Origin: Herbiconiux moechotypicola
GTDB taxonomy: Bacteria > Actinomycetota > Actinomycetes > Actinomycetales > Microbacteriaceae
DNA length: 64,000 nt
Assembly: GCF_024979255.1 (NCBI RefSeq)
Contig: NZ_JANLCN010000002.1
Coordinates: 372,001 to 436,000 of the forward strand
Direction of reading: 5' to 3'
Shown here: positions 26,868 to 39,598 of the stretch, one piece after another
Numbering within the stretch: position 1 is the stretch's first letter
Layout: each line of letters starts with the position of its first letter
Notes under the pieces: model-generated
The model's database searches: none
What the model saw: only the letters and a program-made list of their open reading frames with translations
Told to the model about the DNA's origin: nothing
Position numbers and translations under genes: made by a program

Positions 26868-28799
26868 ATGAGCCGGACACTCTGGCGAACACTGCTCGCG
26901 TCGACGGTGGTCGCCGCGGTGGGGTCGGTCGGCGCCCTCGTGGTGCCGACATCCGTGTCGGCCGAAGAGGCGCGACTCGGGCCCATCGATCCCGGGTCAC
27001 GACTCGTGGAGTTCGACCTGCCCAACACCTCGAGCCTCCCGACCGACATCGAAGCGGGTGCCGACGGGTCGGTGTGGGTGTCGATGTTCGCCGAGAAGGC
27101 CGTCGTGCATCTCGACCGCGACGGGAGGCTGATCGCGAAGGCGCCGCTCACGGGGATGGTGACATCGCTGGCCACAGATCATGAGGGCGGCGTCTGGGGT
27201 GTCGAGCTCCTCGCGAACTACATCGTGCACGTCACCGCCGATCATCTGGCTATCGAGTACACGCTCCGACCGGACGGCGCGTTTCCCACCGGCATCTGGG
27301 ACGGGGGTGATCAGGTCTACTTCACCCAACCCGGCGCGGGCGGCATCGGTATCCTCACCGAGTCCACGGGCACCATCACGGAACACCCGATCGCGGGCTC
27401 GGTCACACCGAGCGGGATCAGCGGTCTGGACGACCAGGTGTGGGTGACAGATCCCAATGCCGAACGTGTCTGGATGCTGGACCGCGCGGGTGCCGTGCTG
27501 CCGGGTGGACCGAGGTCCGAGGCATACCTCGAGGCTCGGCTGACCGGCATCGAGTCCGGCCAGCCGAAGGCCATCTACTACACAGAACGATCTGCGGGTC
27601 TCGTTACCTCCGCCTCGAGAACTGCGCTGTTCAACGCTCGCGGATCGCTGAAGGGGATCGTCCAGATCGGCGGCACCTTCTGGTCTGCCGATGCCGTCTC
27701 CAACACGATCCTCTATCTCGGCTCACGAAATTGGGGCGAGTACGTGCTGCCCTCTCCGAACAGCGGCATCACCGCTCTGACGGTCACTGAAGGTCGATTC
27801 CTCTGGGCCCTCGAGAAACGCACCGGTCGGTTGGCCCGTCTCGACACGCTAGTCGGAGTCGAGATGATGCGGAAGGGTGGAACTGATCGGTACGAGGCCG
27901 CATCGGTCATCGGGGAAGATGACCTGGCAGCGTCTGGAACGGCGTATCTGGTCAGCGGGGAGAAGTTCGCCGACGCCCTGAGTGCCGGTGCGACGGCAGC
28001 CGCCGAGGGAGCTCCGATCCTGCTCACCCGCGGCACCGAACTGCCCGCTGTCGTTCGGGCCCAGTTGTCTCGACTCAAGCCGAGAAAGATCGTGGTGGTC
28101 GGCGGGCCGTCGTCCGTGTCCGAGGGGGTGCTCGCAGCGGTCCGGGCCGCGGTGCCCGGTGCTGATCTCACCCGTGTCTCAGGAGCGGATCGTTACGAGG
28201 TCTCTCGCACGCTCGTGCGCTCGATGGACCTGCCCGACGGAGATGTTGGACTCTACCTGGCCAACGGCCAGAACTACCCCGATGCACTCTCGAGCACACC
28301 GGCTGCGGTGCATCTGGGCACAGGAGTGTTGCTGATCGACGGCTCCAAGCCGTTGCTCTCAGATGCCGATCTCGCAATCGTGAAGTCGAGGGTCACCAGA
28401 GGCAAATACGTCAAGATCGTCGGAGGGGAACTCTCGGTGAGTTCTGGAATCGAGGCCCAACTACGGGGCGTTGTACTGGTACAACGAATTGCAGGTCCCG
28501 ATCGCTACGCCGTCTCTGCCGCAGTCAACGAGGATGCATTCGATGAGGCGGGCCTCCACTCGCTTTCACCGAGTTCCGGCTCGAGTGCGTACCTCGCCAG
28601 CGGCGAGAACTTTCCGGATGCGCTTGCCGGTGGGGCCGCTGCGGCGATCAGCGACTCGCCTCTCTTCCTCGCCCGCCGGGCGTGCGTACCCGAAGCGGCA
28701 CTCGAGCGGATCGCATCCCAGGGTGTTGAACTCGGTGTCATTCTCGGGGGCGTGAACACCCTCAGCGAGCGGATAGAGTCACTCACCTCGTGCGGGTGA
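26868..28799 (+). CDS. Secreted beta-propeller protein with cell-wall-binding repeats (CWB2)
   Basis: A 643-aa exported protein. The signal peptide LWRTLLASTVVAAVGSVGAL is followed by a Vgb/streptogramin-lyase-like propeller, residues about 35-325, with repeated blades such as LPTDIEAGADGSVWVSMFAE and TPSGISGLDDQVWVTDP. The C-terminal 310 residues hold three CWB2 (PF04122) repeats, each with a G-x-DRY opening and a YLANGQNYPDAL-type core. CWB2 repeats attach proteins to the cell surface polymer. Enzymatic lyase activity is not expected from propellers of this kind. Base composition is visibly less GC-rich than in its neighbours, with more A/T-ending codons, hinting at different history. Confidence 0.88.
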   Translation: MSRTLWRTLLASTVVAAVGSVGALVVPTSVSAEEARLGPIDPGSRLVEFDLPNTSSLPTDIEAGADGSVWVSMFAEKAVVHLDRDGRLIAKAPLTGMVTSLATDHEGGVWGVELLANYIVHVTADHLAIEYTLRPDGAFPTGIWDGGDQVYFTQPGAGGIGILTESTGTITEHPIAGSVTPSGISGLDDQVWVTDPNAERVWMLDRAGAVLPGGPRSEAYLEARLTGIESGQPKAIYYTERSAGLVTSASRTALFNARGSLKGIVQIGGTFWSADAVSNTILYLGSRNWGEYVLPSPNSGITALTVTEGRFLWALEKRTGRLARLDTLVGVEMMRKGGTDRYEAASVIGEDDLAASGTAYLVSGEKFADALSAGATAAAEGAPILLTRGTELPAVVRAQLSRLKPRKIVVVGGPSSVSEGVLAAVRAAVPGADLTRVSGADRYEVSRTLVRSMDLPDGDVGLYLANGQNYPDALSSTPAAVHLGTGVLLIDGSKPLLSDADLAIVKSRVTRGKYVKIVGGELSVSSGIEAQLRGVVLVQRIAGPDRYAVSAAVNEDAFDEAGLHSLSPSSGSSAYLASGENFPDALAGGAAAAISDSPLFLARRACVPEAALERIASQGVELGVILGGVNTLSERIESLTSCG

Positions 28800-30436: not shown

Positions 30437-30736
30437 CTACGACTTCACGAGGCGGGCGATCGCGGCGGAGGCCTCTTTGAGCTTCTCCTCGGCGACCGGG
30501 CCGCCCTCGGCCACGGCCTCGACCACGCAGTGGTTGAGGTGCTCGTCGAGGAGGCCGAGCGCCACCGACTCGAGGGCGCTGGTGACCGCCGAGATCTGCG
30601 TGAGGATGTCGATGCAGTACTTCTCGTCGGCCACCATGTTCTGCAGACCGCGGGTCTGCCCCTCGATGCGCTTGAGGCGCTTGAGGTAGGCGTCCTTGTT
30701 CGAGATGTAGCCGTGGTGGGCGTGCGCGTCGCTCAT
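30437..30736 (-). CDS. csoR: Copper-sensing repressor CsoR
   Basis: A 99-aa all-helical metal-responsive repressor. The Cu(I) ligand set C-H-C is visible as Cys41, His66 and Cys70, with the exact 25- and 4-residue spacings of CsoR (KYCIDILTQISA; LDEHLNHC). The N-terminus has extra histidines (DAHAHHGY). It derepresses on binding Cu(I). Its ATG overlaps the stop of the copper ATPase gene (ATGA), giving a self-regulated operon, and a TACCCC/GGGGTA operator lies before the ATPase. Confidence 0.92.
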   Translation of the reverse strand: MSDAHAHHGYISNKDAYLKRLKRIEGQTRGLQNMVADEKYCIDILTQISAVTSALESVALGLLDEHLNHCVVEAVAEGGPVAEEKLKEASAAIARLVKS

Positions 30737-32976
30737 GCACCGATCCTCTCAGGGACGATCGTCTCCGGGCTGAGGTCGAGGCGCCGGAGCAGCTGGGCGT
30801 TGAGCGCCACGATGATGGTCGACAGCGACATGAGGATCGCCCCGACCGCCATCGGCAGCACGAACCCGATCGGCGCGAGCACGCCGGCCGCGAGCGGCAC
30901 CGACAGCAGGTTGTAGCCGGCGGCCCACCAGAGGTTCTGCGTCATCTTGCGGTAGCTCGCCTTCGACAGCGCGATGATCGACAGCACCGATCGCGGGTCG
31001 TCGCTGGCCAGGATGACACCGGCCGAGGCGATGGCCACGTCGGTGCCCGCTCCGATCGCGATGCCCACGTCTGCCCGGGCGAGAGCGGGCGCGTCGTTGA
31101 CGCCGTCGCCGACCATCGCGACCGTGCGACCCTCGGCCTGCAGCTCGGCGACCTTGTCGGACTTGTCCTCGGGCCTCACCCCGGCGAACACCCGCTCGAT
31201 GCCGAGCGAGGCCGCCACGGCGCGCGCCACAGGCTCGGCGTCGCCCGTGATCATCACGACCTCGACACCGCGCTGCCGCAGCGCGTCGACCGCGGCGCGC
31301 GACTCGGGCCGCACCTCGTCGGCCAGGGCGAGCCTGCCGATCACGGCGCCGTCGCGCAGCACGTGCAGCACCGTCTGCCCGTCGAGCGCGGGCTCGGGCG
31401 CGGGCTCGACGGTCTCCGTCGCCGGTCGCCCTGCCGCCGCGCTCTGCTCGAGCAGCCGCGGCCCGCCCACCTCGATCGTCGCCCCGTCGACCACGGCCGA
31501 CACGCCGACCGCCGCCGAAGCGCGGAAGCCGGTGGCATCCGGGATCGCGACCCCGCGCATCCGGGCGGCCTCGACGATCGCCTTGGCCAGCGGATGCTCG
31601 CTGTCGGCCTCGGCCGCCGCGGCCAGCGCCAGCAGCTCGGCCTCGCTCGTGCCCTCGGCGGGCAGCACCGCGGTGACGGCGGGGCGGCCGAGGGTGAGGG
31701 TGCCGGTCTTGTCGAACAGGACGGTGTCGACGGTGCGCATGGTCTCCAGCGCGAGGCGGTCTTTCACGAGGATGCCCGCCTTGGCGGCGCGCTCGGTGGA
31801 GATCGAGACCACGAGCGGGATGGCGAGCCCGAGCGCGTGCGGGCAGGCGATGACGAGCACGGTGATCGTGCGGATGACCGCGTCGTCGGGGCTGCCGACG
31901 AGCGTCCACACGACGGCGGTGATGACCGCGGCACCGAGCGCGAACCAGAAGAGCCACGCCGCGGCGCGGTCGGCGATGCGCTGCGCCCGCGAGCTGGAGT
32001 TCTGCGCCTCGGTGACCAGGCGCTGGATGCCGGCGAGCGCGGTGTCGTCGCCGACGGCGGTGATGCGGATGCGCAGGGCGGTGTCGGTGGCGACGGTGCC
32101 GGCCACGACGTGGTCGCCTGGGGCGCGCGTGACCGGGCGGGACTCGCCGGTGATCATGGACTCGTCGACCGCGGCTGTGCCGTCGACGACCTCGCCGTCG
32201 GCCGGAACCCGGCCCCCGGGGCGAACGATGACGAGGTCGCCCACCCGGAGCTCGGAGGGCGCGACGGTGGAGGTGGTGCCGTCGGCGTCGAGGCGCTCGG
32301 CCTGGTCGGGCAGGAGTGCGGCGAGGGAGTCGAGGGCCGAGGTGGTCTGCGCGAGGGAGCGCATCTCGATCCAGTGGCCGAGCAGCATGATGACGATGAG
32401 GAGGGCGAGCTCCCACCAGAAGTCGAGCTCGTGGTCGAGGAGGCCGAGGGTGGCGCCCCAGCTGGCGACGAAGGCGACCGTGATGGCCAGCGCGATGAGC
32501 AGCATCATGCCGGGCTGCTTGGCGCGGAGCTCGTCGACGCCGCCGGTGAGGAACGGGCGGCCGCCGAACACGAACATGACGGTGCCGAGCACGGGGGAGA
32601 TCCAGGTGGTGAAGCCCTCGCTCGGGAGGGGGTAACCGAGGATCATGGCGAACATGCCGCTGAAGCCCACGACGGGCAGTGCGATGATGAGCATCACCCA
32701 GAAGAGGCGGCGGAAGACGGCGACGTGCCCGGAGTGGTCGTGGCCGCCGTGGCCCCCGTGGTGGCCGGAGTGGTCGTGGTGGGCCGAGTGGTCGTGGTGG
32801 CCGGTGTGACCCTGGTGACCGGAGGCGGGGTTCGCCTGCGAGTGGTCGTGACCCGTGTGTGCCGAGGAGTGGTCGTGATGCGCCGAGTGGTCATGGCCGG
32901 CGTGCGTGGTGGAGTGGTCGTGCACGTCGCTGTGGTCATGGCCGTGGTGCGTGGTGTGGTCGTGCTCGGTGCTCAT
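30733..32976 (-). CDS. copB: Copper-exporting P1B-type ATPase with His-rich N-terminus (CopB-like)
   Basis: Heavy-metal P-type ATPase, 747 aa, in the plasma membrane. The membrane metal motif is CPH (IACPHALGLAIPLV), which marks the P1B-3 (CopB) group, whereas CopA has CPC. The phosphorylation motif DKTGTLTLG, actuator TGES (SMITGESRPV) and hinge GDGVNDAPALARADVG are intact. Residues 1-83 contain 31 His in HDHS-type repeats and replace the usual CxxC domains. Export of Cu(I)/Cu(II) fits the coupled CsoR gene; Ag or other ions are possible. Confidence 0.92.
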   Translation of the reverse strand: MSTEHDHTTHHGHDHSDVHDHSTTHAGHDHSAHHDHSSAHTGHDHSQANPASGHQGHTGHHDHSAHHDHSGHHGGHGGHDHSGHVAVFRRLFWVMLIIALPVVGFSGMFAMILGYPLPSEGFTTWISPVLGTVMFVFGGRPFLTGGVDELRAKQPGMMLLIALAITVAFVASWGATLGLLDHELDFWWELALLIVIMLLGHWIEMRSLAQTTSALDSLAALLPDQAERLDADGTTSTVAPSELRVGDLVIVRPGGRVPADGEVVDGTAAVDESMITGESRPVTRAPGDHVVAGTVATDTALRIRITAVGDDTALAGIQRLVTEAQNSSSRAQRIADRAAAWLFWFALGAAVITAVVWTLVGSPDDAVIRTITVLVIACPHALGLAIPLVVSISTERAAKAGILVKDRLALETMRTVDTVLFDKTGTLTLGRPAVTAVLPAEGTSEAELLALAAAAEADSEHPLAKAIVEAARMRGVAIPDATGFRASAAVGVSAVVDGATIEVGGPRLLEQSAAAGRPATETVEPAPEPALDGQTVLHVLRDGAVIGRLALADEVRPESRAAVDALRQRGVEVVMITGDAEPVARAVAASLGIERVFAGVRPEDKSDKVAELQAEGRTVAMVGDGVNDAPALARADVGIAIGAGTDVAIASAGVILASDDPRSVLSIIALSKASYRKMTQNLWWAAGYNLLSVPLAAGVLAPIGFVLPMAVGAILMSLSTIIVALNAQLLRRLDLSPETIVPERIGA
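32740..32976 (-). repeat. Degenerate repeats encoding the His/Asp/Ser-rich ATPase N-terminus
   Basis: Short imperfect tandem units around GTGGTCGTG on the plus strand encode HDHS/HHDHS blocks. The variation is that of an expanding low-complexity coding tract. Confidence 0.6.
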
Positions 32977-33004: not shown

Positions 33005-33072
33005 CTGGTGCAACCGGATGCGGGAGTTCCGCTGTCTGCGAACGTCGCGCATACGGGTGTCTACGATGGAGC

Positions 33073-33399
33073 ATGAGCGAGCCCACCGCACCCTCTCCGG
33101 CCCCCGAACCCGAGCCCCTGTGGCGCCATCTCGTGGGGGAGAGTCTGCGGGAGCGCCGGCACGATCTCGGCGAGAAGCTCACCGAGACGGCGGGGCGGGC
33201 CGGGGTCTCGCCGCAGTACCTGTCCGAGATCGAGCGCGGCGTGAAGGAGCCCTCGAGCGAGATGATCGCGGCGGTCGCGGGCGCGCTCGGTCTCACCCTG
33301 GTCGACCTCACACTCGACGTCGCCGAGCGGCTCCGCCCGCCCGCGAGCGCGGGTGCCCAGCCGGCGGCACACCGGAGCGCCTTCGCCCTCGCGGCCTGA
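33073..33399 (+). CDS. XRE-type regulator, ClgR/PopR-like
   Basis: A 108-aa regulator with one Cro/CI helix-turn-helix (TETAGRAGVSPQYLSEIERG, VKEPSSEMIAAVAGALGL). This pattern, including YLSEIERGxKEPSSE, is that of ClgR and PopR, actinobacterial activators of clp protease genes. The C-terminus is SAFALAA, resembling the ssrA degradation tag; in ClgR/PopR terminal alanines make the activator a Clp substrate, giving feedback (known for the family). It faces the two clpP-like genes, 37 bases stop to stop. The ATG has GGAG only one base upstream, so a leaderless start after TACGAT is possible. Confidence 0.8.
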   Translation: MSEPTAPSPAPEPEPLWRHLVGESLRERRHDLGEKLTETAGRAGVSPQYLSEIERGVKEPSSEMIAAVAGALGLTLVDLTLDVAERLRPPASAGAQPAAHRSAFALAA

Positions 33400-33436: not shown

Positions 33437-34051
33437 TCAGACGTCGGCGCCTCGCTCCTCGACCTCGCGCTGCTCGATGATGGCGTCGATGAGTCCGTAC
33501 TCCTTCGCGGCGGTGGCCGTGAACACCCGGTCGTGATCGGTGTCGGCGCGCAGTTCGGCGGTGCTGCGCCCGGTATGCCTGGCGAGGATGTGCTCGATGT
33601 CGGCGCGCACCCGCACCACCTCGTCGGCCTGGAGGATGAGGTCGGGGATGGTGCCCCGCCCCTGCGCCGCCGGCTGGTGCAGCACCACCCGCGCGTGCGG
33701 CAGTGCCGATCGGCGCCCCTCCGCTCCCGCGGCGAGCAGTACCGCCCCGACCGCGATCGCCTGCCCCACGCCGATGGTGGCCACGGGCGGTCGGATGTAG
33801 CGCATCGTGTCGTAGACGGCCAGCATCGCGCTCGGGTCGCCGCCCTCGCAGTTGATGTAGAACTGGATCTCACGGTCGGGGTTCTCCGACTCCAGGTGCA
33901 GCAGCTGCGCCACGAGGGCGTTGGCGACGCCCGCGTCGATCGCGGTGCCGAGGTAGACCACGCGCTCGGAGAGCAGGTGTGAGTACACGTCCATCGCACG
34001 GTCGCCGTTCGGGTGCCGGGCGATGACGGTGGGGATGGTGTAGCTGCTCAT
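33437..34051 (-). CDS. ClpP paralog without catalytic serine (ClpR-like)
   Basis: A 204-aa member of the ClpP fold. The fold is well kept (DVYSHLLSERVVYLG, FYINCEGGDPSAMLAVYDTM, ARVVLHQPAAQ), and His125 and Asp174 of the triad are present. The nucleophile position, however, is alanine: GVGQAIAVGAVLL where active ClpP has GQAASMGAFLL (Ala100, codon at 33752-33754). It would be proteolytically dead on its own and probably assembles with the partner encoded directly upstream, whose stop overlaps this ATG (ATGA). A structural or regulatory ring, as for cyanobacterial ClpR, is the likely role. Confidence 0.88.
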   Translation of the reverse strand: MSSYTIPTVIARHPNGDRAMDVYSHLLSERVVYLGTAIDAGVANALVAQLLHLESENPDREIQFYINCEGGDPSAMLAVYDTMRYIRPPVATIGVGQAIAVGAVLLAAGAEGRRSALPHARVVLHQPAAQGRGTIPDLILQADEVVRVRADIEHILARHTGRSTAELRADTDHDRVFTATAAKEYGLIDAIIEQREVEERGADV

Positions 34052-34745: not shown

Positions 34746-34778
34746 CGTGGCCACGATGCTGCTCACGGCGGATCCGCC
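34746..34778. promoter_or_regulatory. Two perfect palindromes upstream of the clpP-like pair
   Basis: CGTGGCCACG (34746-34755) and GGCGGATCCGCC (34767-34778) lie 30 and 51 bases upstream of the clpP-like start, in the only gap before that operon. They may be regulator sites; chance palindromes are common at this GC content. Confidence 0.3.
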
Positions 34779-34807
34779 GAGAGCAGCGCACCGCGACCGG
34801 TTACACG

Positions 34808-38025: not shown

Positions 38026-39492
38026 TCAGCCGAGCGACGGGGAGGGCTCCACCTCGGGGGTGAGTTCGGAGCCGGGCTCTGCGCCGACGGCGGCGCCGGT
38101 GCCGGTGCCGTTGGTGACGGCGGGCGCGCAGCGGGTGAGCGAGTTGAGCGGCGAACCGAGGCTCGAGAGACCCCCGATGAGGGTGGCGTAGCCCGTGTGC
38201 AGCGACAGCATCTCTCGCCAGACCTCGTCGGGCAGGCACTCGACCGGCGACAGGAACAGGGGTGCCTCGTCGGCCGCGGCGAGGGGGCCCGACCCGAGGG
38301 CGTCGGGGAAGGTGGTGCCCGAGGCGATGTAGACGTGGGAGGTGGGGCCGAAGAAGGCCGCGGCGAGGGCGACGGAGGTCGCGTAGCGGCCGTCGCCGGC
38401 GATGCGGGTGGTGTCGGGCACCGCGGCGAGGAGGGTGCCGTACGCGGCGGCCGAGATGCTCGCCTCTCCGCCGACCGCGGTGGCCTCGGCGACTCCGAGC
38501 GTCTGCAGCAGCGTGAGGGTCGGTTCGTCCACGCCGTCCGGGGGGAGGAGGATCACGGGGCCGTCGGCCGCGGCCGCCGCCGGACCCGCCGCGAGGGCGT
38601 CGGCGAAGCCAGCGCCGCTGGCGAACAATGCCTCCGGGGCGGAGCACCCGGCACCCGGACCCGGGCTCGGTGAGCAGAAGGCGTCGGCCGCCACCAGGCG
38701 CGAGGTCTCGAAGCGGTCGGCTCCACCGAGCCGCACGGTGGCATCGGCCGGCGCGAGGGCGGAGGCCTGGGTGAAGAGCTGCGCAGACATCGAGCCCTCG
38801 CCGCCCACGACGACGATGCGCCCGGGCTGGAGGTCGGTGAGCTGCTGGGTGATGGAGGCGGAGAGAGACGTGCCGTCGGTCAGCACCACCGCGCCTCCGG
38901 CGTGGGCGGCAGCGGGCCCGGCGCTCAGCGCGTCGGGAAAGCTGAGGCCGTTCGCAAGGTAGATGGTGGGCGACTCGGGTGGGCCGTCGGGCCAGAGCTC
39001 GTCGTTCACGAGTCGATTCGTGTCGAAGCGGTCGGCACCCGCGATGCGGTCGACCCGCACGCTCCGGTACGACAGGCTGGCATCGACGTCGGCCACGGGG
39101 GAGGCGGTGCTGAGCGCGATCGGCTCGGCATCGTCGAGGTCGTAGCGCTGGGGCCAGTACACGTCGAAGTACCGGTTGCTGGTCTCGGTGAACTTCACCA
39201 CGTACGAACCGGCCGGAACCCGGGCGAAACTGTAGTCGCCTGTCTCAGTCGAGGCGAGTGCCGTCGCGGTCGGCGTGGTCGACACGATCGGGTCGCCCTC
39301 GGCGGTCTCGCCCGTGACGGCGTAGAGCCAGACCTTCGGCCTCCCCTCGTGGGCCGCCGTCGGATAGGTGACGGTGCCGCTGAGGGCCGGAGCGCTCTCC
39401 TCGGCGGCCGCGGCACCTGCCGGAACGCCGGCGAGCGCGGCAGCGGCCAGCGCGATGACGAGTGTGGCTGCGGATGGCAGGAGTCGCCGCAT
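38026..39492 (-). CDS. Secreted protein with three cell-wall-binding repeats (CWB2)
   Basis: A 488-aa exported protein. The signal peptide RRLLPSAATLVIALAAAALA and an A-x-A site precede a carboxypeptidase-regulatory-like beta-sandwich (residues about 30-140, ending GSYVVKFTETSNRYFDVYWP). Three CWB2 repeats follow, opening DRIAGADRFDT, RLGGADRFETS and RIAGDGRYATS. The ATG at 39492 has GGAGGA five bases upstream and is preferred over an ATG 12 bases earlier. It is the second CWB2 protein in the window after the one at 26.9-28.8 kb. The last 20 residues are Pro/Glu-rich. It is likely cell-surface attached. Confidence 0.87.
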   Translation of the reverse strand: MRRLLPSAATLVIALAAAALAGVPAGAAAAEESAPALSGTVTYPTAAHEGRPKVWLYAVTGETAEGDPIVSTTPTATALASTETGDYSFARVPAGSYVVKFTETSNRYFDVYWPQRYDLDDAEPIALSTASPVADVDASLSYRSVRVDRIAGADRFDTNRLVNDELWPDGPPESPTIYLANGLSFPDALSAGPAAAHAGGAVVLTDGTSLSASITQQLTDLQPGRIVVVGGEGSMSAQLFTQASALAPADATVRLGGADRFETSRLVAADAFCSPSPGPGAGCSAPEALFASGAGFADALAAGPAAAAADGPVILLPPDGVDEPTLTLLQTLGVAEATAVGGEASISAAAYGTLLAAVPDTTRIAGDGRYATSVALAAAFFGPTSHVYIASGTTFPDALGSGPLAAADEAPLFLSPVECLPDEVWREMLSLHTGYATLIGGLSSLGSPLNSLTRCAPAVTNGTGTGAAVGAEPGSELTPEVEPSPSLG

Positions 39493-39598
39493 TCTGTCCT
39501 CCATGTTGCTACGGATGTCGATCAGAGTCGGGTTGGGACAGCATAACAACGCCGTGTTACAGCTGATCGCTCGATGACGAGAACGGTGCGAGCAGGAG

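Follow-up and report, generated by a model that had tools for sequence, protein, structure and literature searches.

The closest described relative of the locus studied here is the clpP3clpP4 operon of Streptomyces, which is accompanied by the regulator PopR (Viala et al. 2000, 2002, as cited in PMC9765437 and PMC12607617). Since ClpP1P2 degrades PopR, the Streptomyces clpP3P4 genes are expressed only when ClpP1P2 fails (PMC9765437, PMC12607617). The PopR operator of S. lividans reads TCTGCC-3N-GGCGAATCTGCC-3N-GGCAGA (PMC9775585). In the housekeeping ClpP1P2 of actinobacteria, including Streptomyces and Mycobacterium, a ClpP1-type and a ClpP2-type subunit are encoded in one operon and the ATPases dock on ClpP2. 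In Streptomyces the ClpP2 active site is dispensable: the core keeps full activity with ClpP2-S131A and has none with ClpP1-S113A, and the ATPases dock on ClpP2 (PMC9765437). In Mycobacterium tuberculosis both ATPases need the ClpP2 face, and inactivation of either subunit left ClpX-dependent degradation unslowed (PMC4416901), so that the assignment of the active ring is not uniform across actinobacteria. Inactive ClpP paralogs that work with an active one are also represented by the ClpR proteins of cyanobacteria, plastids and apicoplasts (PMC7966870). In Listeria monocytogenes the triad of one of the two ClpPs, ClpP1, is degenerate (Asp to Asn), and it becomes aligned for activity once ClpP1 forms a complex with ClpP2 (as cited in PMC9765437).

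The locus described here lies in the window, the whole 64,000-nt stretch of Herbiconiux moechotypicola DNA that was analysed. Tandem ClpP1- and ClpP2-type clpP genes adjoin a PopR with an Ala-Ala tail and an operator-like box of the same architecture as in Streptomyces, and ClpP1P2 and ClgR are encoded elsewhere; on these features the locus is a Streptomyces-type, PopR-controlled clpP3-clpP4 backup operon, rather than the unknown specialised protease proposed in the initial annotation. It differs from its Streptomyces counterpart in the residue at which ClpP4 is broken (His to Gly in Streptomyces, Ser to Ala in the window) and in a box that matches the operator at 18 of 24 positions. The operon resembles housekeeping ClpP1P2 in its subunit types, but every housekeeping pair examined has kept its two triads, whereas the backup pair has naturally fixed the Ser-to-Ala state of ClpP2. 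With ClpR the window ClpP4 shares the absence of a complete triad in a ClpP paralog adjoining an active partner; unlike ClpR, which is one old lineage, ClpP4 arose separately, descends from the ClpP2 type, is under PopR control and has lost triad residues repeatedly and in varied ways. Some ClpP4 proteins carry the Asp to Asn change of Listeria ClpP1, but an absent Ser nucleophile is beyond rescue by complex formation. The clpP3clpP4 operon, PopR and ClpP-type pseudoproteases were already known; what appears new is that the ClpP2-type ring of such a backup Clp core has been disarmed recurrently. Open-access full texts yielded no mention of an inactive or repeatedly disarmed ClpP4, although the primary Streptomyces clpP3clpP4 papers of 2000, 2002 and 2011 may mention the Streptomyces case.

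Results

Table 1. Features of the clpP3-clpP4 locus, with positions given relative to the window.
Feature	Position	Strand	Basis
Possible ClgR-type box CGC-N5-GCGAAC, upstream of popR (suggestive only)	33030..33043	+	pattern match
popR-type regulator, 108-aa XRE HTH protein, convergent to clpP4, C-terminus FALAA	33073..33399	+	translation, tree
C-terminal Ala-Ala codons of PopR, known ClpP1P2 recognition signal	33391..33396	+	degron role, PMC9775585
clpP4-type gene, ClpP2-type subunit, 204 aa, catalytic Ser replaced by Ala100	33437..34051	-	translation, ATG at 34051, stop at 33437
Asp174 codon of clpP4, triad Asp kept	33530..33532	-	translation and alignment
His125 codon of clpP4, triad His kept	33677..33679	-	translation and alignment
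Codon 100 of clpP4, GCG = Ala, nucleophile position	33752..33754	-	translation and alignment with E. coli ClpP
CEGGD, ClpP4 residues 68-72, in place of the canonical SPGGS substrate/oxyanion loop	33836..33850	-	alignment
clpP3-type gene, ClpP1-type subunit, 222 aa, intact Ser94-His119-Asp168, no N-terminal axial-loop segment	34048..34716	-	translation, alignment, tree
Candidate PopR box, near-palindrome GCTGCTCACGGCGGATCCGCCGAGAGCAGC, upstream of clpP3	34758..34787		18/24 match to S. lividans operator

The ClpP1-type gene clpP3 comes first and overlaps the ClpP2-type gene clpP4 by ATGA (34048-34051). Both products strongly match the ClpP profile PF00574 (211 bits for ClpP4, 173 bits for ClpP3). 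Ala100 of ClpP4 sits within GQAIAVGAVLLAAG, whose aligned counterpart in E. coli ClpP, GQAASMGAFLLTAG, has Ser97. An AlphaFold2 model of ClpP4 is that of a normal ClpP subunit (pLDDT 85.9), with M. tuberculosis ClpP1P2 entries as its nearest PDB matches (45-46% identity); the best solved matches of ClpP3 include M. tuberculosis ClpP1. The window ClpP4 has the fold and family profile of ClpP (PF00574) but, with Ala100, an incomplete Ser-His-Asp triad, which makes it a pseudoprotease by sequence. A sequencing error or lone mutation at this codon was ruled out, since Ser is absent from all 20 further family orthologs, which have Ala or Gly there. The source genome carries four ClpP genes, the window pair and a housekeeping pair at C29:309951-311188, both of whose members have complete triads. 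Translation and alignment bear out what was initially annotated for the pair, namely a Ser to Ala100 change with His125 and Asp174 kept and an intact triad in the adjacent paralog. The pair is also distinct from housekeeping ClpP1P2, as annotated.

The window regulator scored 60 bits against the ClgR equivalog model, for which the cut-off is 170, and a separate ClgR-like protein (98.8 bits) is encoded in the source genome at C29:373964. In a tree of regulators from ten genomes with both types, those adjacent to clpP3clpP4 split from ClgR at 100/99, with two Streptomyces-like clpP3clpP4-adjacent regulators on the side of the window protein; this clean split identifies the window regulator as PopR, a paralog of ClgR. 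PopR was convergent in all 108 operons in which it was found and ended in Ala-Ala in 98 of them, or in 160 of 172 in a larger set. The S. lividans operator pattern was matched at at least 18 of 24 positions in 72 of 116 clpP3 upstream regions, against 0 of 2320 dinucleotide-shuffled sequences, and Streptomyces members reached 24; the candidate PopR box is the best match within the 64-kb window, the next best scoring 16. Upstream of popR, a stricter pattern related to the ClgR-type box was present in 26 of 169 regions against 0.55 expected, whereas the plain CGC-N5-GCG core was not enriched (81 of 169 vs 77 expected), only its stricter forms being so. By analogy with Streptomyces, the operon of H. 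moechotypicola would be controlled by PopR and ClpP1P2. The Microbacteriaceae ClgR-like proteins L190, L292, L293 and L294 lack an Ala-Ala end, unlike Streptomyces-like ClgR and PopR, and their turnover may differ. In the Nocardioides operons L076, L085, L094, L095, L096 and L102, clpP4 and popR are about 700-860 bp apart, and a similar ORF of about 260 aa with an EWTVADVLSHLGSGAEI-like motif lies between them.

Operons were gathered from a family search, a phylum sample, a named genome collection, a second class and a class sample, and yielded 187 non-identical ClpP4 proteins from clpP3clpP4-type operons; L269, L274, L275 and L277-L281 were left out as housekeeping-type ClpP2 (no PopR, DIERDK-type motifs). 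The ClpP4 triad was broken in 139 of the 187 and complete in 48. Written in the order Ser-His-Asp, the most frequent states were AHD (58), SHD (48), SGD (28) and GHD (19), followed by EHN (5), SHN (4), SHA, SDD, WHT and EHH (3 each), GHE, GQD and SHS (2 each) and seven single types. Across the 187 proteins, Ser was replaced by Ala, Gly, Glu, Trp or Phe and Asp by Ala, Asn, His, Ser or Thr; His was Gly in all 29 Streptomycetaceae sampled and was changed to Asp, Gln or Ser elsewhere. One triad residue and no more was lost in 120 of the 139 broken proteins. The full triad was present in 182 of 182 ClpP3 proteins and in four further loci read by eye with nearer queries (186 in all). An apparent lack of ClpP3 at L079, L096, L106 and L127 proved to be a query artefact, nearer queries finding an intact ClpP3 in all four. 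An inactive-looking ClpP next to an active paralog, first noticed in the window, therefore recurs, with the triad broken in 139 of 187 ClpP4 proteins and in none of 186 partners. Housekeeping ClpP1 and ClpP2 triads were complete in 27 of 27 loci (the source genome, 17 others with the operon and 9 without), of which L173 breaks off before ClpP1. The ClpP4 of L023 (G026) reads in two overlapping frames, reflecting a frameshift or a sequencing error.

The SPGGS loop is changed to xxGGD or xxGGE in 56 of the 58 AHD rows (51 of the 58 have Cys as its first residue) and is kept in 42 of the 48 intact-triad rows; a second active-site feature is thus altered in the Ala clade. CEGGD together with a complete triad was found only in Kribbella rubisoli (L090) and Nocardia jejuensis (L082), both inside the Ala clade. 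Their nucleophile codon is TCG (Ser), and a secondary regain is the most plausible origin of this Ser. Because of the 48 orthologs with a full triad and these two Ser rows, ClpP4 inactivity is not universal. Ser in orthologs, named in the initial annotation as evidence against its reading, was therefore found in part. Within the window's clade Ala or Gly at this position is the rule (support 99, starred) and only the two CEGGD-bearing rows have Ser; in other lineages it is His or Asp whose loss broke the triad.

ClpP3, ClpP4, housekeeping ClpP1 and housekeeping ClpP2 each formed one clade in a joint tree. ClpP3 grouped with housekeeping ClpP1 (support 99, starred), and ClpP4 with ClpP2 and other actinobacterial ClpPs (97, starred) and with housekeeping ClpP2 (92); this grouping suggests that the operon arose as an ancient copy of clpP1P2. 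Against NF009204, which we take to be the ClpR family model, the window ClpP4 scored 160.7 bits, below the cut-off of 263, compared with 237 bits against a general ClpP model, and ClpR membership was ruled out by this score and the tree. The operon is patchy, occurring in 21 of 150 family genomes (the window's included) and not in two same-genus relatives, and it is also found on records classed as plasmids, for example a Tsukamurella plasmid and a 5.7-Mb Embleya record. It therefore probably moves horizontally between lineages, and counts of independent losses accordingly hang on a single-gene tree with many weak inner branches.

That ClpP4 tree was built without the three triad columns. On it (INDEPENDENCE), the intact or broken state needs 11 changes, and the strongly supported (starred) branches alone force 5. 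By site, changes between lost and kept number 6 for Ser, 5 for His and 8 for Asp. If reversals are as costly as losses, roughly nine losses and two Ser regains result; if loss is irreversible, 22. The large Ala/Gly clade of the window (99, starred) comprises Nocardia, Amycolatopsis, Mycolicibacterium, Streptosporangiaceae, Thermomonosporaceae and Microbacteriaceae. While the exact number of triad losses is uncertain, a single origin is untenable because the residues lost are so varied. The dN/dS of ClpP4 was at most 0.16 in 26 close pairs (Nei-Gojobori), mostly below 0.1 and usually lower than that of ClpP3 in the same pair. These ratios rule out a pseudogene and indicate that ClpP4 is under purifying selection, the inactive-looking subunit thus being maintained by selection.

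The N-terminal axial segment and a Tyr at E. coli position 62 are kept in all 187 ClpP4 proteins, and of the 148 rows extending to position 192, 144 have Arg there. In most ClpP3 proteins the axial segment is absent; this count was taken from matched stretches and is somewhat query-biased, but the open frames of the operons inspected likewise show none. ClpP3 residues also differ at positions 62, 82 and 192.

Discussion

From the sequences, synteny, operator, descent and constraint observed for ClpP3 and ClpP4, it is likely that these operons encode a PopR-controlled backup core in which the ATPase docks on a gating ring of ClpP4 and cutting is confined to the ClpP3 ring. Active ClpP1P2 would degrade PopR via its Ala-Ala tail and so keep clpP3-clpP4 off; upon failure of ClpP1P2, PopR would accumulate, bind its box and turn the genes on. 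ClpP3 and ClpP4 would then co-assemble as two stacked heptamers, as the housekeeping pair suggests by analogy. ClpP4, with its axial loops and docking face, would take a ClpX or ClpC ring and gate entry, and is predicted to be inactive in the test tube; ClpP3, whose axial loop is missing and whose docking face is remodelled, would do all the cutting. The initial annotation had envisaged a mixed active/inactive ring; judging from the homology to ClpP1P2, a face-to-face stack of two homo-heptameric rings seems likelier than mixing of the subunits in a single ring. We propose that the triad of ClpP4 was lost repeatedly because the ClpP2-type active site was already dispensable, each loss falling at whichever triad residue mutated first. 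A bolder version holds that the inactive ATPase-side ring was itself selected, making the one-ring-active Clp core a recurrent adaptive design of Actinomycetota backup proteases and not mere loss of a dispensable site. This is offered tentatively and seems rather doubtful; possible gains would be evasion of ClpP-targeting antibiotics on that ring, or altered processivity or product size.

Alternatively, ClpP4 might be a regulator or dominant-negative decoy that poisons or replaces housekeeping ClpP1P2 subunits, with no productive ClpP3P4 core. S. hawaiiensis ClpP-ADEP, which disrupts ClpP1 complexes and builds a new core with ClpP2 (PMC12607617), would be a precedent, and since ClpP4 is ClpP2-like in the tree it could pair with ClpP1. 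However, ClpP4 is always co-operonic with an active ClpP1-type partner, in most cases with a start/stop overlap. In addition, the viability of S. lividans needs at least one of clpP1P2 and clpP3P4 (PMC9765437), so clpP3P4 is productive there even though Streptomyces ClpP4 has Gly at the catalytic His. A decoy role is therefore considered unlikely.

Decay toward gene loss of a functionless ClpP4 might be read from the many different residues at every triad position and from the L023 protein split over two frames. The low dN/dS in all 26 pairs largely refutes it, and Tyr62 and the axial loop are invariant and the operon, PopR and box retained, leaving decay very improbable. There is similarly little to recommend residual cutting by another nucleophile or mechanism, for example the CEGGD-loop Cys with His125. 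This would suit the Ala clade, in which SPGGS has become CEGGD/E with Cys in most AHD rows and His and Asp are kept, but SPGGS/T is retained in Streptomyces and in most other broken lineages, where His or Asp is the residue lost, so that a shared replacement nucleophile is absent; CEGGD is, moreover, present in the two Ser rows as well. That ClpP4 is an ordinary ClpR, a bacterial relative of the cyanobacterial and plastid lineage, is the least credible reading, the ClpR likeness drawn in the initial annotation holding for the logic of an inactive paralog within a mixed core (PMC7966870) but failing for descent, in that the NF009204 score is low, the tree joins ClpP4 with actinobacterial ClpP2 and the triad losses fall inside Actinomycetota.

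The change made in the Streptomyces ClpP1P2 experiments, in which the active sites of one ring could be removed at no cost, is found many times in nature. Each time it affects the backup core's ClpP2-type subunit, and the partner is never disarmed. Comparison of triad-bearing with triad-less orthologs makes the division between cutting and docking rings testable, and Streptomyces ClpP4 is itself predicted to be inactive. The findings also bear on ClpP-directed antibiotics, clpP3P4 being a known ADEP escape route in Streptomyces (PMC12607617).

Several neighbouring genes were also noted. Adjoining popR, a gene at 30437-32976 (-) encodes a P-type ATPase with a His-rich N-terminus and lies next to a metal-sensitive (CsoR-type) repressor gene, the two likely forming a metal-efflux unit. 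The region is flanked by genes for CWB2 cell-wall-binding-repeat proteins at 26868-28799 (+) and 38026-39501 (-), the first of which also has a virginiamycin-B-lyase-like domain.
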